Positions 112 through 16,927 of a stretch of 20,743 nt of DNA are shown here, piece after piece; within the stretch, counting starts at the first letter, position 1, and each line of letters begins with the position of its first letter. The DNA comes from a virus, in IMG/VR virus record IMGVR_UViG_3300037427_001608, positions 1 to 20,743 of that record. One strand, written 5' to 3'. The translations under genes and the position numbers were made by a program. The notes below the pieces were generated by a model. The model searched no databases. It was not told the DNA's origin and was given only the letters and a program-made list of their open reading frames with translations.

Positions 112-1194
112 ATGAGTGATTTAATACTGACAGACAACACATTCGGAGTTGAAATCGAAACTGCTTCACCAGTTTCACGTGAAAGACTTGCAACAATACT
201 GGAAGAAAAAACTAATCTTCCGATATATGCAGAAGGTTATAATCACAGAGACAGTGAAACAAACTGGAAGATTGTATCAGATGCAACCATCAGAACAACA
301 AATTCATGTCCTAATCAAGCAGAAATAGTTTCACCAATTCTAAAAGGTGAAGCAGGTCTGCAAGAACTTGAAAAGATGCTGACAGCATTAAATGAAGTAG
401 GTGTTATAGTGAACAAGTCATGCGGAATTCATGTACATCATGATGCAAATATGCTGAACACTGAACAGATGATCAAACTTTCTCAATTCTACACATTCTA
501 TGAAACAATTCTTGACAGTCTGCAACCTATGAGTAGACGAGCGCATAATTCATATAACACACCTATGAAGCAGAATTCAGAACATTCAAGTCAACTATTT
601 GACAGAATAGAATCACGCAAATCAATGAATGACTGGATAGCAAGAGAAAGAAATGATTCTGCAAAACGTGAAAATATGAGATTAGCATTTGCGCACCAAT
701 TTGCAAGAAACTGCAAACTGAACATTTACTCTGCTTATGGAAGACATGAAACAATAGAGTTTCGTCATCATTCTTCTAGCACTGAATTCTTGAAGATAAA
801 AAATTGGATTATCTTAACACAAGCAATGATGAAGTTTGCTTCAAATAATCGCAAAAAACTTTCAAAGAATCATAAACCAACATTTGCAAAGATGTTCAAA
901 CTCTTGGAAGTTTCAAAGAAAGTTGAAGAATTTTACACATTTCGCAGACTGATTTTAAGAGATAAATATTTTTCTTTCAATTCTGGATGCACCAAACAAG
1001 ATGCTGGATATTTTCCAAGATCAAGACCACGTTCAGCAGGTAGCAGATGTTTTTTAGATTCTGCAAACAATGGAACACTTCACAGATACCTAGCAAACCA
1101 GAATCCAGAATGCGAAGGTGATTTTGATGATGAAGAAATGCAACTTGAAAGAGAAGCACTTCCATATACTTTCACACAAGCAGTTTCAAACTAA
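112..1194 (+). CDS. amidoligase family protein (COOH-NH2 ligase, Amidoligase_2)
   Basis: A 360-aa protein resembling the phage and bacterial amidoligases of the glutamine-synthetase-like fold, which use ATP to join a carboxyl to an amine (peptide-like or gamma-glutamyl bonds). The family motifs appear in order: FGVEIE at residues 11-16 with acidic E14 and E16, then WKIVSDATI (52-60), AEIVSP (70-75), GIHVHHD (105-111) and TIEFRHHSS (214-222). These are the expected ATP/metal-binding acidic and histidine positions. The frame stays open upstream to TTG 19, but that codon is inside the promoter -35 box, so ATG 112 with GGAGAG upstream is preferred. A GGCT-domain protein three genes downstream supports a gamma-glutamyl-type reaction, a pairing described for phage amidoligases. 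The substrate is unknown. The C-terminal third (from about 270) has no motif I recognise. Confidence 0.85.
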   Translation: MSDLILTDNTFGVEIETASPVSRERLATILEEKTNLPIYAEGYNHRDSETNWKIVSDATIRTTNSCPNQAEIVSPILKGEAGLQELEKMLTALNEVGVIVNKSCGIHVHHDANMLNTEQMIKLSQFYTFYETILDSLQPMSRRAHNSYNTPMKQNSEHSSQLFDRIESRKSMNDWIARERNDSAKRENMRLAFAHQFARNCKLNIYSAYGRHETIEFRHHSSSTEFLKIKNWIILTQAMMKFASNNRKKLSKNHKPTFAKMFKLLEVSKKVEEFYTFRRLILRDKYFSFNSGCTKQDAGYFPRSRPRSAGSRCFLDSANNGTLHRYLANQNPECEGDFDDEEMQLEREALPYTFTQAVSN

Positions 1195-1202
1195 TTAAAC
1201 AA

Positions 1203-1221
1203 GCGCACCTTCATGGTGCGC
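1203..1221 (+). promoter_or_regulatory. GCGCACC/GGTGCGC hairpin between amidoligase and next gene
   Basis: A perfect 7-bp GC-rich stem (GCGCACC at 1203-1209, GGTGCGC at 1215-1221) with a 5-nt loop sits between a stop codon and the ribosome-binding cassette of the next gene. No T-run follows, so a classical intrinsic terminator is unlikely. An mRNA-stabilising or processing hairpin fits better. A second copy of the same design occurs at 2025-2046. Confidence 0.55.
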
Positions 1222-1225
1222 ACTA

Positions 1226-1245
1226 ACACTGGAGAAAATAAAATG
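1226..1245 (+). repeat. repeated translation-initiation cassette (copy 1 of 4)
   Basis: ACTGGAGAAAATAAAATG occurs ahead of the genes starting at 1243 and 1780, and with a single T-to-G change ahead of those starting at 2068 and 2273. Copies lie at about 1226-1245, 1763-1782, 2051-2070 and 2256-2275. Each holds a GGAG Shine-Dalgarno core at the same distance from the ATG. The match extends beyond what ribosome binding requires, so these leaders probably share a control mechanism or arose by duplication. They also fix the start codons of all four genes. Confidence 0.75.
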
Positions 1246-1758
1246 AGTACACGTGCAAGAATAGGTTATAAAACAAGAGACAACAACAATAAATACAATG
1301 GTCTTGTTATTTCAACATACGTTCACATGGATGGTGATATGTTACTTGAACCATTGAATGAAGTCTTTTTTTCAAAGAAGAAAGCATTTGATTTATGTTT
1401 TTCTGGACATATTTCTTCACTTGATCTGTACATCAACAATGGATGTGTTTTGACAGATGATGAAAAACTATTGCAAGGTGAAAGCATTCTTTTCACTGCA
1501 ATAGAAGAATTTACTAACAGTGAAATATATTCAAGAGAAACTCGAAGACTAGAATCAGACCTTGAATATCTTTACTTGTTTGACAAGCATGAAAATACGC
1601 ACTGCTGGAAGCAGTTCAGAACAGAATTCAATTCTGAACCAGTGCAAGAAACTGTACCTGCTAGAACATCAATTTTCAGAACTGATGCAATAGCGAATCA
1701 AAGAAGATGTGAACAGTTGAACAGTCTTTATCCTTCACTAACTTCAATCTTAGTCTAA
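1243..1758 (+). CDS. conserved phage hypothetical protein (STRARIG-type N-terminus)
   Basis: A 171-aa acidic, soluble protein of unknown function. Its N-terminus (STRARIGYK, then a strand with ISTYVHMDGD at about residues 28-37) resembles small phage proteins that open with a TRA-I-G strand followed by a Y-H-DG motif; I cannot assign a role to that family. No membrane segment, signal peptide or metal site is evident. An ATG at 1213 is in frame but lies in the upstream hairpin, so ATG 1243, preceded by the repeated ACTGGAGAAAATAAA leader, is the start. Its place directly after the amidoligase makes it a candidate partner or substrate of that enzyme, by position only. Confidence 0.7.
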   Translation: MSTRARIGYKTRDNNNKYNGLVISTYVHMDGDMLLEPLNEVFFSKKKAFDLCFSGHISSLDLYINNGCVLTDDEKLLQGESILFTAIEEFTNSEIYSRETRRLESDLEYLYLFDKHENTHCWKQFRTEFNSEPVQETVPARTSIFRTDAIANQRRCEQLNSLYPSLTSILV

Positions 1759-1779
1759 TCTTAAACTGGAGAAAATAAA

Positions 1780-2016
1780 ATGGAAACTTATGCACCTACA
1801 ATTGAAACTCTTAAAAAAATAGTTGAAGAGCAACAACATCAAACCATTCAATTTGAAGAAGGAAACTCAATTGTTGACTTGTTCAGTGCTTCCGCACTGG
1901 TTGCAGTTTATAATGCTTTAAGCAGAGAATCACTAAAAGAACATTTTAGAAATCAAATCAAATCAAGAGTAGGTTATTTGGTAGTTTTAGACTTTGCATT
2001 TGAAAGAACACAATAA
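1780..2016 (+). CDS. small conserved-looking phage protein, unknown function
   Basis: A 78-aa protein with a mainly helical pattern. Residues about 29-75 read as a compact two- or three-helix unit (LFSASALVAVYNALS, then a basic stretch and VVLDFAFE). I recall similar short proteins in phage accessory regions but know of no assigned function. The start is fixed by the shared ACTGGAGAAAATAAA leader. It lies in the amidoligase operon, 21 bases after the previous stop, and could be a partner or peptide substrate of the pathway. Confidence 0.7.
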   Translation: METYAPTIETLKKIVEEQQHQTIQFEEGNSIVDLFSASALVAVYNALSRESLKEHFRNQIKSRVGYLVVLDFAFERTQ

Positions 2017-2024
2017 ATCAACTC

Positions 2025-2046
2025 AGCGCATCTTAAAAGGTGCGCT
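2025..2046 (+). promoter_or_regulatory. second GCGC-type intergenic hairpin
   Basis: AGCGCATC (2025-2032) pairs with GGTGCGCT (2039-2046) around a 6-nt loop, giving 8 bp with one G-U wobble. It has the same arm sequence and the same placement, just before the ACTGGAGAAAA leader, as the hairpin at 1203-1221. The short TTT after it is too weak for me to call a terminator. Confidence 0.5.
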
Positions 2047-2067
2047 TTAAACACTGGAGAAAAGAAA

Positions 2068-2292
2068 ATGTTTAGCTATATTAAAATGAACAAACTCGAA
2101 GATAAAATCAATAATTGGAGAGAAAGTTTGTCTGAAGAACAACAAGTTCCAAATGAATTATTACTGCTGGAAGAAAAACTTGAAGAAATGTTTGAACATC
2201 TTGAAGTTTTAGAAGGTGCAAGAAGCGAACTGCAAGAAGCACAATTTGAACTCTCAAACTGGAGAAAAGAAAATGAAACAGATGAAGCATAA
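2068..2292 (+). CDS. small acidic coiled-coil-like protein
   Basis: A 74-aa, strongly acidic protein almost entirely predicted helical. Residues about 25-65 are rich in Leu and Glu with heptad-like spacing, so a coiled coil or helical hairpin is likely. No catalytic motif is visible. Its last 20 bases overlap the start of the double-GGCT gene, and the ribosome-binding leader of that gene lies inside this coding sequence, which implies coupled translation. It could be a small adaptor or inhibitor, or a target of the amidoligase/GGCT pair; none of these can be chosen from sequence alone. Confidence 0.65.
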   Translation: MFSYIKMNKLEDKINNWRESLSEEQQVPNELLLLEEKLEEMFEHLEVLEGARSELQEAQFELSNWRKENETDEA

Positions 2293-3445
2293 AAAAGGTG
2301 AACATCTTCACCAGATAAAAAAAGCACCTTTAAAACAAGCAATACCTGCACCTACAACGCAATGGTATTTTGCGTATGGTTCAAACATGAATCGCAAAAG
2401 AATGTTTGCACGTAATGCAGTTTGGAACATTTGCACTGCTGGAACATTGTACAATCACAAACTTGTATTTAATAAGAAGTCTAAAAAAGCAAGTGAAGGA
2501 TTTGCAAATATCATCAAGTCAAAAGAACACGAAGTTGAAGGTGTTTTATATAGACTTGAATCAAAGCACCTTTACAAGCACCTTGACAAGTTTGAATGTG
2601 CAGGAACACATTACAACAGAGTTGAAAAGCGCATACGTAGAGCAGATGGAAAATTTATCACTGCTTTTGTATATGTAGCAATTTTGACTCAAAAGAATTT
2701 ACAACCTAGTGAGGAATATTTAAACCATTTATTGAAAGGAGAAATGTATTTATCACCAGAATATTTAGAGTTTCTAAAGAGAACAGAAATATCTATCAAC
2801 AAAGAAATGAAAGTGTTTGTCTATGGTACACTTAAAAAAGGTTTTGGAAACCATAGAAGACTTGAAGATGCTACGAAAGTAGAACCAGCGCAAGTTAATG
2901 GTAGATTATATGATGTTGGTCTACCATACGTTTGCATGAAAGACTCAAACTTTTCTTGTATTGCTTCCGGTGATATTGAGAAAGACATGAAGTCTTTCAG
3001 TAATCAAAAGACCGAAAACTATATTTCATCAAATGAAACAGTTAAAGGTGAATTGATTACATTTTCTGATTGGTCTGCATTGAAAGGTCTTGATAGTTTG
3101 GAAGGATATAGACCAAACTTCATGCAACACAATGAAGATGCAATCTTCAGTAATAACCATTATGTGCGAGTTTTGACAACTTGCATCACTGCTAAAAACC
3201 ATGTTGAACCATGTTGGATTTACATAGTTAAGCAGAGTCAAAAGAATTTTAAGAAATCAGATCAAGTTTTGTCTGGTGAATATAAGCGTTTTGTAAACAA
3301 TCATCATTCAAGCATTCAAGAAATGGAAAGACTTGAAGATGAACTTGATACAATTGAACACAATACAGACATGAGTTTGTCTTATGATTATCTTAATAAT
3401 GACTATGGAATCGTTAATTCATTATGTGAAAAAGGAGAGTTATGA
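2273..3445 (+). CDS. tandem gamma-glutamylcyclotransferase (two GGCT/AIG2-like domains)
   Basis: A 390-aa protein with two GGCT-fold domains. Domain 1 (about residues 30-150) has YGSNM at 35-39, a GFANI strand (76-80) and the LDKFE segment whose E108 matches the catalytic glutamate, followed by Y114 and R116. Domain 2 (about 180-325) has VYGTLKKG at 183-190 and LDSLEGY with E277 at the catalytic position. GGCT enzymes release gamma-glutamyl groups as 5-oxoproline; usual family members have one domain of about 110-180 aa. Domain 1 resembles the GGCT type and domain 2 the AIG2/GGACT type, so the two may act on different bonds. ATG 2273 is preferred over the in-frame ATG 2216, which lies inside the previous gene and lacks the shared leader. 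An internal ATG at residue 179 could yield domain 2 alone. The pairing with an amidoligase suggests a make-and-break modification cycle. Confidence 0.85.
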   Translation: MKQMKHKKGEHLHQIKKAPLKQAIPAPTTQWYFAYGSNMNRKRMFARNAVWNICTAGTLYNHKLVFNKKSKKASEGFANIIKSKEHEVEGVLYRLESKHLYKHLDKFECAGTHYNRVEKRIRRADGKFITAFVYVAILTQKNLQPSEEYLNHLLKGEMYLSPEYLEFLKRTEISINKEMKVFVYGTLKKGFGNHRRLEDATKVEPAQVNGRLYDVGLPYVCMKDSNFSCIASGDIEKDMKSFSNQKTENYISSNETVKGELITFSDWSALKGLDSLEGYRPNFMQHNEDAIFSNNHYVRVLTTCITAKNHVEPCWIYIVKQSQKNFKKSDQVLSGEYKRFVNNHHSSIQEMERLEDELDTIEHNTDMSLSYDYLNNDYGIVNSLCEKGEL

Positions 3446-3921: not shown

Positions 3922-4131
3922 ATGAATAAGCACTGGATAGAACCAATCGAAATAGGAAAATCTAAAGAAAATTATTTAGATAAGGAACAAGTCGAAGCAA
4001 TCGTAATTCCAGAGAATTGTGATTGGGGATTAGTTCCGAAGATTGAAGAAATGAAACAAAAAGACATTGATGTGATTGTTCTAAAAGTTGAAGACTTTGC
4101 AGAAATGTTTGCTACAATCTCAAATGAATAA
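3922..4131 (+). CDS. small hypothetical protein
   Basis: A 69-aa acidic protein preceded by AAAGGAG. The pattern EAIVIPENCDWGLVPKIEEMKQKDIDVIVLKVEDFAEMF suggests a small alternating strand-helix-strand fold. No family is recognised. It lies in the same plus-strand run as its neighbours with gaps of about 10 bases, so it is probably co-transcribed with them. Confidence 0.55.
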   Translation: MNKHWIEPIEIGKSKENYLDKEQVEAIVIPENCDWGLVPKIEEMKQKDIDVIVLKVEDFAEMFATISNE

Positions 4132-4139
4132 GGAGAGTT

Positions 4140-4355
4140 ATGAAACAAGACATTGACATAAAAACATTTCAAGGGAAAATCCCTGCATATTCTTTTCTGA
4201 TGGTTTATGAAAAAGGTCAAAGCACTAAAGATGGTATTGTCTTAGAAGGATTTGGTGAAGAAGGATTGTTTGACCATAATTTTAAAAATCCTCAATATTG
4301 TTTTTTAAAATTTAGCAATGAAACAATTAAAAAGATAGAATCTGCTAACAGATAA
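4140..4355 (+). CDS. small hypothetical protein
   Basis: A 71-aa protein preceded by AAGGAGAGTT. It has mixed charge and several aromatics, including a central segment with FLMVYEKGQS and a C-terminal YCFLKFSNE strand. No membrane segment or catalytic motif is visible and I do not recognise a family. It is the last of a run of short genes before the hairpin at 4368-4404. Confidence 0.55.
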   Translation: MKQDIDIKTFQGKIPAYSFLMVYEKGQSTKDGIVLEGFGEEGLFDHNFKNPQYCFLKFSNETIKKIESANR

Positions 4356-7065: not shown

Positions 7066-8172
7066 TTAAGATTTTTTTTCTAGTTCATATAATTCTCTGT
7101 GCTTGTCTCCTCTTTTACCTATGTACTCATGTGAGTAACAGATTCTTGAAGCATCCGGCAACCAATGATTAAACTCGTCCTTTGTTGCAGTATTAATCTT
7201 TTTTAGGTTCGTTGATGTTGCTCTCCACCAATCATGCTTCTGTCGATACTCACCGAATCTGAAGTGTGCAGTCTTTGAGAAGTACCTGTAACCTTGATCC
7301 AAATGAAGTTGACCAAGTGCATCTGAAAACCTAACTCCAATTCCAAGACCTTGAAAGTCAGGAAGAATAACAGTCCTGCTTGCACGAACTGAATTACGAT
7401 TATCACCTTCGTACAATGGAGGAAAGTAGCCCGGAAAATAGAGAGTTGCATTGAATCCAACCATTTTATTTTCCCAGTAGCATAGATAACATTTCGCAGT
7501 CTGGTTTAAGTCTGCACTTAAATAGTGATGCTGACTAAAGGTTTTCCATGCTGATCTTGTGGACTTGTAGATTTCAAATCGAATAGGAATCCGTTGAAGC
7601 CACCTCCCGATGGTAAAAGAACCATCTGAAGTATCGAATGTCCATTCTGGTTCTAGCCAGTCTTTGATGTCTTCGTGACAAGAAGCGAATACAATGTTCT
7701 TTAGATTGTTACGCTTAATATATTTACTGATCGCATAGCTTGCAGACTTCGCAACATCACGATTAACAACAGACGTAAATTCGTCTATAACTGCTCCGTT
7801 TTCTAATTTACGTGCTAAGTCTGCTCTGAACTTTTCTCCTGTACTCAGCGCATGATATGGACGTAACCAAGATGGTATTGAATTGAATCCTACAGCAGAT
7901 AATTTATCCATTGCTTCATCTGGTGTTTTAAAGTGAGAAACTATAGCAAGTTCAGAATTCCATTGAGGAACTTTTTCTTCTCCGAACTCTTTCAGCAGAG
8001 AAGACTTTCCTGAACCAGAAGGACCCATTATCAATCCAGTTGAGAATTCATCTGGAACAGGAGGTTTGTCAAAGCAGGTGAATGAAGTTTTTCCATCAAA
8101 CTCATAATCAAATGCTTCACTTGCTCTTGCTGTGAACTCGTCTTTTTTAACTATTGATTCTAGTATTTTCAC
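7066..8172 (-). CDS. ABC-type ATPase fused to GNAT acyltransferase (COG2401-like)
   Basis: A 368-aa two-domain protein. The N-terminal ABC ATPase has Walker A GPSGSGKS (50-57), an LSTGE signature (109-113), Walker B AVIDE (127-131) and the switch histidine H166. The C-terminal GNAT-like domain (about 205-320) has the acyl-CoA-binding loop QGLGIG (274-279) and an HHYL motif at 215-218. The order matches the ABC-ATPase/acetyltransferase fusion family COG2401, whose function is not established. No membrane segments exist, so transport is unlikely. The HHY motif and following SR recall the Mom-type acyltransferases that modify adenine in phage Mu, which makes DNA modification a possible role; this is inference. 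The start is GTG 8172, in a GTGA overlap with the preceding 46-aa gene, and no Shine-Dalgarno is visible, so translation is probably coupled. Confidence 0.75.
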   Translation of the reverse strand: MKILESIVKKDEFTARASEAFDYEFDGKTSFTCFDKPPVPDEFSTGLIMGPSGSGKSSLLKEFGEEKVPQWNSELAIVSHFKTPDEAMDKLSAVGFNSIPSWLRPYHALSTGEKFRADLARKLENGAVIDEFTSVVNRDVAKSASYAISKYIKRNNLKNIVFASCHEDIKDWLEPEWTFDTSDGSFTIGRWLQRIPIRFEIYKSTRSAWKTFSQHHYLSADLNQTAKCYLCYWENKMVGFNATLYFPGYFPPLYEGDNRNSVRASRTVILPDFQGLGIGVRFSDALGQLHLDQGYRYFSKTAHFRFGEYRQKHDWWRATSTNLKKINTATKDEFNHWLPDASRICYSHEYIGKRGDKHRELYELEKKS

Positions 8173-8309
8173 AATAAGTTACGTAATTTCATGTATGCTA
8201 TATAACACTTAAAACTTTCTAAGGATTTTTTCTTACGTCTTTCTTCGTTAATTTTTCCTTCTTCTACTCTCTTATCGTTTGCTTTAACTTCTTTCTCGTA
8301 TTTATTCAT
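8169..8309 (-). CDS. 46-aa small basic protein between dioxygenase and ABC-GNAT genes
   Basis: A short frame of 46 codons, very rich in Lys and Glu, with a basic helical centre (EERRKKKS). AGGAGTTCC lies upstream of ATG 8309. The start overlaps the dioxygenase stop by ATGA and its own stop overlaps the GTG of the ABC-GNAT gene by GTGA. This exact fit on both sides is strong evidence for a translated gene despite its length. It may serve mainly to deliver ribosomes to the ABC-GNAT start, which lacks its own ribosome-binding site. No family is recognised. Confidence 0.65.
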   Translation of the reverse strand: MNKYEKEVKANDKRVEEGKINEERRKKKSLESFKCYIAYMKLRNLL

Positions 8310-8863
8310 TTGAATGGAACTCCTATAAACCACGCAACTAATGAATACCTAGTACCAGAAGTTACAGGAGTAACGCAATGCTCCACGATAGATGGAAATA
8401 GAATAATACTCCCTGTCCCTTGTGCGATTGTTTCAATAATAACCTTACCTCTTTTAAATAGAGCAACCTGAAAATCACCTCCTTCGTAGTCATCATTGAG
8501 TTGTATTGTCATCGATATTTTCCTAACTTTTCCATTAACTGCATTTTTATGAGAACCTTTTCCATCAATGTGAAAATCGTAATAATCACCTTTTTCATAT
8601 CTTGTGATCTGGATTGCTTCCACTCCAGAAATGTCATAGTTTAATCCAGTGACTTCGTTGTAGGATTCCATATATTTCCAGACCAAATCAATAATCCATT
8701 GTTCGCTAGTCCAGAAGATTTTACTGTTTCGGATTTCTTCAACTCCTTCTACTTCTGCTTTTTCCCAAGACTTAGCAAGACGCAGAATCTCCTGACAATT
8801 TTCTTTTGTCAGTTCTTCTTTCATTTCCAAGACGTGTGTATCGTTATTTAATCGTGCTTCCAT
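8306..8863 (-). CDS. 2OG-Fe(II) dioxygenase (PKHD/prolyl-4-hydroxylase-like)
   Basis: A 185-aa member of the 2-oxoglutarate, Fe(II)-dependent oxygenase superfamily. The iron-binding triad is H98-x-D100 in YYDFHIDG and H162 in VEHCVTP. R172 in GTRYSLVAWF is the expected 2OG-binding arginine. The order and length match the PKHD-type hydroxylases common in phages. The substrate is unknown: protein side chains or nucleic acid bases are both possible. ATG 8863 is preceded by TGGAGAC and overlaps the upstream HNH gene by 16 bases. Its position two genes before the ABC-GNAT fusion raises the possibility of a shared modification pathway. Confidence 0.85.
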   Translation of the reverse strand: MEARLNNDTHVLEMKEELTKENCQEILRLAKSWEKAEVEGVEEIRNSKIFWTSEQWIIDLVWKYMESYNEVTGLNYDISGVEAIQITRYEKGDYYDFHIDGKGSHKNAVNGKVRKISMTIQLNDDYEGGDFQVALFKRGKVIIETIAQGTGSIILFPSIVEHCVTPVTSGTRYSLVAWFIGVPFK

Positions 8864-14620: not shown

Positions 14621-14669
14621 TAGGAAAAGAGGAGACTACCTTGCTCCTTGTGCTTTCCTCTTTTTCCTA
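14621..14669. terminator. candidate bidirectional terminator between integrase and virion genes
   Basis: TAGGAAAAGAGGA (14621-14633) and TCCTCTTTTTCCTA (14656-14669) form a 13-bp stem with a one-base bulge and a 22-nt loop. The right arm lies inside the last codons of the convergent virion gene. The U-rich arm could act as a terminator for transcripts from either side, but there is no long trailing U-run and the loop is large. Confidence 0.4.
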
Positions 14670-16927
14670 TTATCGTAATCTCCTCCAACTGTGGAAGAAC
14701 CACCTACTCCAAGACTTAGAAGACCCATTGGATCATATTTACCTTGAGTCATTGCTCGTTTAGTTAATAGACCTTCAGCAGATTTAAGATTCTCTCCAAC
14801 CTTTTCACCTTGCTCAAACGCAAACTTTGCTCCAGACGTTGCTTTCTTTTTTGCTATTTCTGGAGCAATTCCTCGTTCTAATGCTGTCACAACTGCTGGA
14901 GCATTCCTAGATTTTACGTCCTGCATCATTTGAAGTCCAGTACCTATTGCTGTATCGTCATCCATCGCTTGTCTGGATGCAGTTAAGGAATTCTTCAGCA
15001 GTACGTTGTCTACATATATTCTTTCTCCAAGAACATCAAGTCTTGCAAGTAATCTTCTTCTTTCTTTAGGGTTAGGAACTAACCATGTAAGTTTATTAAG
15101 ATTCTGTTCAGACTTAAAGTAATCTGCAACTGCTCTAGGATTCTTCCCTTCTCCTGCACGTTCAATCCAATCCATCATTGAATTGTATGCACCTAGTTTG
15201 AATGAATCTCTCTGACTCATTTCTAATTGCTTCCAGACATACTCTGCATCGTCTTTAGATAGACTTGGTTTCCATAGATCAGCACCTTGCTCAAATGCGT
15301 CTTCCAACTCAGCTTGTCCTTGATACTTACTCCTTGCAGTTTTGTACGCTGGATGTGCGTCTTCTGTAAGAGTGACCATTCTGGTCTTTAATTCTGTTAT
15401 GTCAGGTTTAGAACCTTTCAATGCTGGAGGTGCGTCAGGAAGGTGAGCATATTTGTATTTGCGATCCAGATACTTTTTAGCTGAATCCAATGCCCAGACA
15501 GGCCATTCAACAGGTTCATTGGAGATAGGGATTAAGTTACCTGCTTGATCTCTGTCAAAAGTCATTGGTAATCCATCTACAAAGTAGTCACTGTTTGGAT
15601 CTTCTACCATCCGATACCTTTGCTCCAGAGGGAACTTTGGTAGGGTCTTACCATCTACTGAGTTTCGTGCTTGTCTCTCAGCAACCTTGTATGCTTCCAT
15701 GAAATCTGGTCTTAGCATGATTTCATCAATCTCAGGATTTACGATAGTATTGTAAATTTTATTTCCTTGCTCATCAACACGGAAATACGCTTCTTGATAA
15801 TGAGGTTTCGCTTGTTCTCTTGCTCTATTCATTAAGTAGTCTTTCTGTTTCTGGATACCTTTCCTGACTTGTCCAGATGCAGAAGTGATGAAATCTACTG
15901 CTTTCTCCTTCGTATTCATTAACCTTGATCTTAACGATTCTCTGATAACTCTTATTGTATCGCTTGTTGGATCACCTAACCTGAGAAAACTTCCTGCTTT
16001 CTCTACACCAACCTCGTCTATAAGATCAACCGCCATTACGTCATCTCCAAGACCTAATTGCTTTATCTTCTCATACTTTTGTTTCACTGCTCCAGAGAGT
16101 TTACCATCCTTCATAAAGAATGCTTTAATCTGGTCAAATCCTTCTCCTAGTTCATCCATTGTGTTTAGAACTTTAGGATTGTCCATCATTATTTTATAAC
16201 CACCAGCTAAACCTTTACCTATAGGTGCGAATAGAGGTAATACTCCACCTGTTGCACCTCCAAGTGCAGTCGCAAGCAGTGATTGTTTTCCTACATCTTC
16301 CTCACCTCTTGCACCTGCTAATAATGCAGTCTGCGAACCTGAAGCACCTCCTCCAACTACGAGTCCTGTTCCTACTTCCTTTATTGTTTTCCGTACAGGT
16401 TTCCCTGCTTGTGCGTATTTACCAATCTTAGTAGCTTTCATCACATTACCTAAAGGAACTAATGCTTGTGCTGTACCTCCAGCGACCTCTGCAACTTTGG
16501 AAGAAACTGGATTTTCAAGCATATAATCCTGAATTTCTGCTCTAGTCATTTTGAGGTTCTTATCCCAGTTCCATTCTCCTGTCTTTGCTTTGTCTTGTAA
16601 TGATTTAATTCCTGCTCTTGCGTAGATAGATGCACCAGAAGTAAATGAATCTTGTGCATGAGCTAAATCTCTAACAAGACCTGAACCAACATCTCCACCT
16701 CCCATTTTAACTACATCACTATCACCACGAATATACTTATCAACTGTAGTCCAGAATCCTTCTCCTTTATCTTTCTTCTCTGACTTATGCTTCAAAGCTA
16801 ATTCATAAGACGCAGGAGTATATCCAAACTCCTTTAATGTTTTTGTGATCTCCTCCTCTGAACCTCCTACTTCTCTAAATTCAGTAATAACAGCAGTAAT
16901 GTCTTCTAAAGTTGGATTATCTTTCAT
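14636..16927 (-). CDS. large internal virion / DNA-ejection-type protein
   Basis: A 763-aa protein with Gly/Ala-rich hydrophobic segments at about residues 145-165 and 185-250, flanked by long charged helical regions. No lysozyme or protease motif is visible. This build, and its place as the last of a run of large virion-like genes, fits podovirus internal core proteins that leave the head with the DNA and cross the envelope. It ends in a strongly basic tail (KKRKKRKAQGAR). ATG 16927 overlaps the previous stop by ATGA. A large tail component is the alternative. Family assignment is by overall character, not by motif. Confidence 0.6.
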   Translation of the reverse strand: MKDNPTLEDITAVITEFREVGGSEEEITKTLKEFGYTPASYELALKHKSEKKDKGEGFWTTVDKYIRGDSDVVKMGGGDVGSGLVRDLAHAQDSFTSGASIYARAGIKSLQDKAKTGEWNWDKNLKMTRAEIQDYMLENPVSSKVAEVAGGTAQALVPLGNVMKATKIGKYAQAGKPVRKTIKEVGTGLVVGGGASGSQTALLAGARGEEDVGKQSLLATALGGATGGVLPLFAPIGKGLAGGYKIMMDNPKVLNTMDELGEGFDQIKAFFMKDGKLSGAVKQKYEKIKQLGLGDDVMAVDLIDEVGVEKAGSFLRLGDPTSDTIRVIRESLRSRLMNTKEKAVDFITSASGQVRKGIQKQKDYLMNRAREQAKPHYQEAYFRVDEQGNKIYNTIVNPEIDEIMLRPDFMEAYKVAERQARNSVDGKTLPKFPLEQRYRMVEDPNSDYFVDGLPMTFDRDQAGNLIPISNEPVEWPVWALDSAKKYLDRKYKYAHLPDAPPALKGSKPDITELKTRMVTLTEDAHPAYKTARSKYQGQAELEDAFEQGADLWKPSLSKDDAEYVWKQLEMSQRDSFKLGAYNSMMDWIERAGEGKNPRAVADYFKSEQNLNKLTWLVPNPKERRRLLARLDVLGERIYVDNVLLKNSLTASRQAMDDDTAIGTGLQMMQDVKSRNAPAVVTALERGIAPEIAKKKATSGAKFAFEQGEKVGENLKSAEGLLTKRAMTQGKYDPMGLLSLGVGGSSTVGGDYDNRKKRKAQGAR

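Follow-up and report, generated by a model that had tools for sequence, protein, structure and literature searches.

We examined a stretch of viral DNA, 20,743 bases long and probably a fragment, from the IMG/VR record IMGVR_UViG_3300037427_001608 (hereafter the window), which carries at its left end an operon running from an amidoligase gene to a gene for a double gamma-glutamyl cyclotransferase (GGCT) protein, with all five open reading frames on the + strand. The pairing of amidoligase with GGCT is conserved among viruses and is not due to chance. The pairing itself has already been published; the fusion of two GGCT types, A then B, in one protein was not found described in the literature searched. 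We see about an even chance that this phage operon encodes a pathway in which gamma-glutamyl amides are formed and cleaved. An earlier note on this DNA had described an amidoligase, three small open reading frames and a double GGCT, and had proposed that they make and break gamma-glutamyl tags. The reading frames lie exactly where that note placed them, and the paired operon proved real, since the same linkage recurs across viruses. The two enzyme genes and the GGCT domains are as follows.

112-1194, + strand: amidoligase gene, Amidoligase_2 (glutamine-synthetase/GCS-like carboxylate-amine ligase), 360 amino acids
2273-3445, + strand: double GGCT protein, PF06094, 390 amino acids
2357-2788, + strand: GGCT domain A (human GGCT type), residues about 29-172, YGSN, catalytic Glu E108
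2804-3292, + strand: GGCT domain B (YtfP/GGACT type), residues about 178-340, motif FVYGTLKKGFGNH, YGTL, catalytic Glu E277

Both enzymes keep their conserved residues

The amidoligase matched PF12224 (Amidoligase_2) over profile positions 3-245 of 245 (E = 1.1e-34; 120.8 bits against a curated cut-off of 22) and phrog_2443 in PHROGs (E = 1e-42). Residues G12, E14, E16, D57, E71, H107, H109, R199, E216 and R218, which were invariant or nearly so in a 35-sequence alignment, are all present in the window protein. A sequence-profile search against the PDB gave only chance-level matches, and a fold search was needed. The AlphaFold2 model had a confident core (pLDDT above 90), and Foldseek placed YbdK first (1R8G; E = 2e-5), followed by glutamine synthetases (E = 1e-3 and weaker); the depupylase Dop was a weak structural match (7OXV; E = 0.11). 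By its modelled structure, the amidoligase has the glutamine synthetase (GS)/GCS fold, with YbdK, a GCS-like ligase, as its nearest structural match. The amidoligases of viral contigs L015 (3877-5064) and L016 (674-1945) carry a long Cys-rich insert in the N-terminal region with many CxC/CxxC motifs, possibly a metal-binding module, which the window protein does not have.

The double GGCT protein matched PF06094 (GGACT/AIG2-like) in several stretches (E = 9.9e-31; 107.2 bits against a cut-off of 22.8) and was assigned to phrog_2520, gamma-glutamyl cyclotransferase. Domain A matched human GGCT (2PN7; E = 2.8e-8) and the C-terminal half of YkqA (2QIK; E = 9e-6) in the PDB, and Foldseek matched it to 3CRY and 2I5T (E = 1e-9). 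Its E108 aligned with the Glu of the LDEQEG motif in human GGCT, the catalytic Glu of that enzyme. The profile of domain B (A7) matched YtfP (1XHS; E = 1e-19), GGACT (3JUB; E = 2.5e-12) and the N-terminal half of YkqA (E = 3e-12), and E277 was invariant among aligned relatives. The two GGCT domains of the earlier note were thus borne out, each with its YGxx loop and catalytic Glu, and neither enzyme lacks the residues whose loss would have counted against that note.

GGCT genes adjoin amidoligase genes in many viruses

To describe the linkage, we counted a GGCT as linked if it lay within 2.5 kb in a set of 59 amidoligase-sampled viral loci, dereplicated and with complete flanks. A GGCT was linked in 40 of the 59, nearly always just downstream, and 44 of 45 GGCT genes in this set were on the same strand as the amidoligase. 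In a count of 80 viral amidoligase loci, 36 had a GGCT; 32 of 37 GGCT genes started at most 1 kb downstream on the same strand and none lay more than 3 kb away. When neighbours were clustered for 123 dereplicated amidoligase loci, a set partly sampled through GGCT or GAT-II, GGCT ranked first (70 loci), a ParB/methyltransferase-like family second (37) and GAT-II third (32); the second family looks like shared phage synteny. GAT-II is a glutamine amidotransferase, a nitrogen-supplying enzyme often met with the amidoligase. No amidoligase was detected beside a bacterial chromosomal GGCT in 80 loci. Because GGCT adjoins amidoligases across viral contigs and not in these bacterial loci, the pairing is not a chance one, and many viral loci, rather than none, carry both genes.

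A then B in a single protein was found in the window, L015 (cut by the contig end), L016/L096 (one contig, retrieved twice), L113 and L333. The fusion occurs in at least two lineages, adjoining an amidoligase each time: in the tree of amidoligases a supported clade united the window with L015 and L016, L113 lying elsewhere, and in a larger tree the fused label required three changes, of which supported branches force two. In several loci A and B are encoded by separate genes close to the amidoligase (for example L046, L115, L119, L123, L138 and L153). Fused or separate, A and B stood together beside an amidoligase in 16 of 123 dereplicated loci, which is not a population frequency because the double-domain query behind the GGCT-sampled set over-represents loci with both domains; the amidoligase-sampled set gave 5 of 59. 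A human-gut phage contig, L003, has a double GGCT of type A-A directly after the amidoligase (1356-2606), an independent tandem arrangement, and bacterial L190 encodes a B-A protein with no amidoligase nearby. The recurrence of A-B fusions beside amidoligase suggests two separate gamma-glutamyl cleavages in the same pathway, which narrows the chemistry.

A-type GGCT and GAT-II rarely occur together

GAT-II was present in 1 of 61 loci with A-type GGCT as opposed to 39 of 62 other loci when all dereplicated loci were counted, some of the loci without A having been sampled through GAT-II itself. Among loci retrieved by a single amidoligase query, the figures were 0 of 22 as opposed to 11 of 27. 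The sole locus found with both, L131 (3626-9890), holds a B-type GGCT, an A-type GGCT, GAT-II and an amidoligase in one run. A profile search of the 20.7-kb window, itself a fragment, found no GAT-II. The amidoligase tree offered three or four independent A/GAT-II contrasts on well-supported branches, in the expected direction wherever the loci differed and too few to test, so the exclusion may reflect clade history. We regard the near-exclusion as an apparent pattern in these sequences and not as an established rule; it poses a testable question, namely the source of the amine. In the amidoligase-sampled set, B-type GGCT was only weakly associated with GAT-II (P = 0.06), and we make no claim from this.

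The small genes appear to be accessory

Between the two enzyme genes lie three small ones, together with repeated elements.

1243-1758, + strand: small protein, 171 amino acids, phrog_1987, unknown function, MSTRARIG start
1780-2016, + strand: small protein, 78 amino acids, no convincing relatives in Pfam/PHROGs scans
2068-2292, + strand: small acidic protein, 74 amino acids, probably a coiled coil to judge from its sequence
1203-1221, + strand: intergenic hairpin GCGCACC-TTCAT-GGTGCGC, upstream of the 1243 gene
1225-1245, + strand: repeated leader AACACTGGAGAAAATAAAATG, with copies at 1762, 2050 and 2255 (repeat family D1)

Megablast of the window against phages gave no match, and scanning viral contigs with one protein at a time (P0005, the double GGCT protein; P0001, the amidoligase; and P0002) returned zero relatives; alignment queries were required. 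The closest relative was contig L095, 74% identical in the GGCT part, which ends within the GGCT gene. Its order is amidoligase, a homologue of the 1243 gene (7190-7696), a homologue of the 2068 gene (open reading frame 7700-7993) and GGCT; no homologue of the 1780 gene was found there. L095 may come from a P22/Sf6-like podovirus, to judge from its Sf6-like small terminase and from proteins that on inspection resemble a large terminase and a portal. In L015 and L016, the A-B double GGCT directly follows the amidoligase with zero small genes between. Between the window and L095, the small proteins had dN values of 0.50 and 0.33, as opposed to 0.24 and 0.21 for the enzymes. Given the stronger constraint on the enzymes and the lack of intervening small genes in L015 and L016, we take the two enzymes to be the core, and the three small genes look optional. 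The earlier note's idea that they are substrates or adaptors is weakened by these loci and by the missing 1780 homologue, and the co-occurrence of the five proteins, which it proposed as a check, held for the amidoligase and GGCT but not consistently for the small genes.

The protein of the 1243 gene matched phrog_1987 with E = 5e-7. The double GGCT gene starts (2273) within the 3' end of the 2068 gene, and the conserved C-terminal WRKENE of the 74-residue protein is encoded by the overlap with the GGCT Shine-Dalgarno/start; its conservation has another cause because this coding stretch doubles as the signal for the next gene. A leader of the form CTGGAGAAAA(T/G)AAAATG stands ahead of four of the five operon genes. 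A second hairpin of the GCGCACC/GGTGCGC kind lies at about 2025-2046, upstream of the 2068 gene; in the window these hairpins are followed by the repeated leader. L095 has a hairpin similar to that at 1203-1221 in the corresponding position, ahead of its homologue of the 1243 gene (about 7166-7186). The hairpins are possibly elements for mRNA processing or stability. The operon was not enriched in promoter-like sites over shuffled sequence.

Possible pathways for the operon

Enzymes of the GS/GCS fold use ATP to join a carboxylate and an amine, and those of the GGCT family release 5-oxoproline by cyclising a gamma-glutamyl residue whose alpha-amine is free. In the presumed order of steps, the amidoligase would spend ATP on linking an amine to a carboxylate, most likely the glutamate gamma-carboxylate, and domains A and B would cleave two different gamma-glutamyl bonds by cyclotransfer, giving 5-oxoproline and an amine. 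The substrate may be a small molecule, or an exposed group, bearing a gamma-glutamyl residue with a free alpha-amine, and the small genes would be accessory insertions within the operon rather than part of its core. This chemistry is compatible either with one gamma-glutamyl group being put on and taken off or with two steps within the same pathway. Of the earlier note's interpretation, both enzyme families, the apparently intact sites and the conserved pairing are supported. One bond made and broken is only one reading of them; the enzymes may use different bonds or act in sequence. Several points weigh against a pathway of this kind. In 15 of the 59 amidoligase loci there is no GGCT or GAT-II within 2.5 kb, so an amidoligase does not require a breaker close by. 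The AlphaFold2 model of the B half is of low confidence, and since the window is a fragment of 20.7 kb, further partners may lie outside it. In favour of the pathway, both enzymes are constrained between the window and L095 by NG86 estimates for the amidoligase (dN 0.24, dS 1.12) and GGCT domain A (dN 0.21, dS 1.47), but ratios of dN to dS are rough here because dS above 1 is near saturation.

Other explanations start from the same observations. The two enzymes might be unrelated accessory genes that share no pathway and are close by chance, as phage accessory regions are mosaic and a third of amidoligase loci have no GGCT; the linkage is, however, specific in strand and distance in divergent viruses, A-B fusions are repeated beside amidoligase and the 80 bacterial GGCT loci had none, which makes this very improbable. 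Alternatively, the A-type GGCT, instead of undoing the product, could supply the amidoligase with an amine freed from a gamma-glutamyl donor, in the role that GAT-II, which turns glutamine into glutamate and ammonia, has in other loci. This is consistent with how seldom A-type GGCT and GAT-II accompany the same amidoligase family, and with the window, which has A and no GAT-II within its 20.7 kb, but the few independent tree contrasts, the sampling of the non-A set partly via GAT-II and the joint occurrence of A, B, GAT-II and amidoligase in L131 all count against it, and we think it rather unlikely. Generalizing this idea, one amidoligase family would have interchangeable amine-releasing partners, either GAT-II (ammonia from glutamine) or A-type GGCT (amine from a gamma-glutamyl donor), and the A-B protein would be a supply-and-trim module, not an eraser. 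We hold that to be distinctly unlikely; if true, it would give GGCT enzymes a new biosynthetic role.

The purpose of the pathway may be a cell-envelope change against superinfection, as has been guessed in print. In its specific form, the operon would change gamma-glutamyl linkages of the host cell wall and so block superinfection, the stated hypothesis for the cassettes of PSA-HP1, RIO-1, phiEco32 and LUZ24-like phages (PMC5498523; repeated in PMC10580990 and PMC11318856). No experiment on it was found in the literature searched, and, as far as the fragment shows, the window has no counterpart of their ATP-grasp enzyme, second amidoligase or GAT-II. In addition, GGCT needs a free alpha-amine, and the gamma-linked Glu of peptidoglycan is itself N-acylated. 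We therefore view peptidoglycan modification as doubtful. Protein tagging, in which a small operon protein such as the 74-residue acidic one would be conjugated by the amidoligase in the manner of pupylation and removed by the GGCT, gains something from the GS-like fold with its weak Dop match and from the presence of a small acidic protein. Against it stand L015 and L016, which have no small genes between the pair, the other cause of WRKENE conservation and the chemistry of GGCT, which requires a free alpha-amine on the gamma-glutamyl residue and cannot free a tag whose terminal Glu sits in a peptide bond. The tagging idea of the earlier note is disfavoured on this last ground, and we judge it highly improbable. 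A Pup-like tag was likewise rejected, because the small genes are not conserved, the overlapping start explains the C-terminus and GGCT chemistry is unfit. We continue to prefer a pathway that forms and cleaves gamma-glutamyl amides. For host takeover and anti-defence, which the earlier note also raised, the evidence pointed neither way; a PADLOC search for defence systems gave no match for the amidoligase or the GGCT protein.

Other genes in the window

A second repeated leader, TGAA(A/T)AAGGAGAGTTATGA, occurs at 3427-3445 and 4125-4143, upstream of genes at 3442 and 4140. The protein encoded at 7066-8172 (- strand) resembles an ABC-type ATPase in its N-terminal part (ABC_tran, E = 4e-4, short of that profile's cut-off) and an acetyltransferase in its C-terminal part (phrog_7693, E = 3e-5). 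Over nearly its full length it matched phrog_11143, of unknown function (E = 6.5e-103). Genes for 2-oxoglutarate-Fe(II) oxygenase-like proteins lie on the strand opposite to the amidoligase in the window (8306-8863, - strand), in L015 (2741-3400, - strand; similar to the window protein by eye) and in L095 (4197-4715, - strand; a weak match, E = 0.02). A relative search with the 763-residue protein encoded at 14636-16927 found none.

Comparison with known systems

Phage amidoligase-GGCT cassettes are widespread, without a demonstrated function in the literature searched. That literature gave no description of the fused double GGCT or of the A/GAT-II exclusion, although the founding 2009 paper (Iyer et al., Mol Biosyst), which reportedly made the original prediction of the phage cassette, lay outside the search and may contain some of this. 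As the earlier note had stated, amidoligase/GGCT neighbourhoods have been described in phages (PMC5498523, PMC5513430, PMC11318856). In PSA-HP1, what is described as a peptidoglycan modification cassette combines amidoligases with ATP-grasp, GAT-II and GGCT, and several podoviruses are listed as having the pathway (PMC5498523). Like the window, the PSA-HP1/RIO-1/phiEco32 cassette brings amidoligase and GGCT genes together; it differs in also having GAT-II, a second amidoligase and ATP-grasp, and one GGCT gene is named in it, whereas the window has an A-B double GGCT. PHROGs/Pfam scans and an amidoligase-profile search of the 20.7-kb window, a fragment, found neither an ATP-grasp enzyme nor a second amidoligase. 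In Arthrobacter cluster AL phages (Laroye, Salgado and Waltz), the amidoligase encoded next to GGCT belongs to Amidoligase_2 and shares 33-34% identity with that of the window (PMC5513430); Waltz differs in that its amidoligase gene is preceded by a single B-type GGCT and followed by GAT-II. Prophages of Clostridium clostridioforme carry both amidoligase and GGCT (PMC11318856), and the LUZ24-like phage UFV-P2 has amidoligase, GAT-II and ATP-grasp (PMC3890496).

Outside phages, pupylation differs: no small protein in the operon ends in GGE/GGQ, and the operon's ligase is an Amidoligase_2 and not a member of the PafA/Dop family, Dop being a weak structural match. Human GGCT (2PN7/3CRY) resembles domain A and GGACT (3JUC) resembles domain B, with the catalytic Glu kept, but these are single-domain cellular enzymes, and domain B of the window has an insert of about 40 residues and weak direct similarity. 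In butirosin biosynthesis, the ligase BtrJ adds a gamma-glutamyl group and the GGCT-family enzyme BtrG removes it, a precedent for make-and-break chemistry, although BtrJ is an ATP-grasp enzyme and the pathway serves antibiotic biosynthesis. Bacillus subtilis YkqA (PDB 2QIK), like the window protein, combines both GGCT types in one chain, in the order B then A, whereas the phage protein has A then B.

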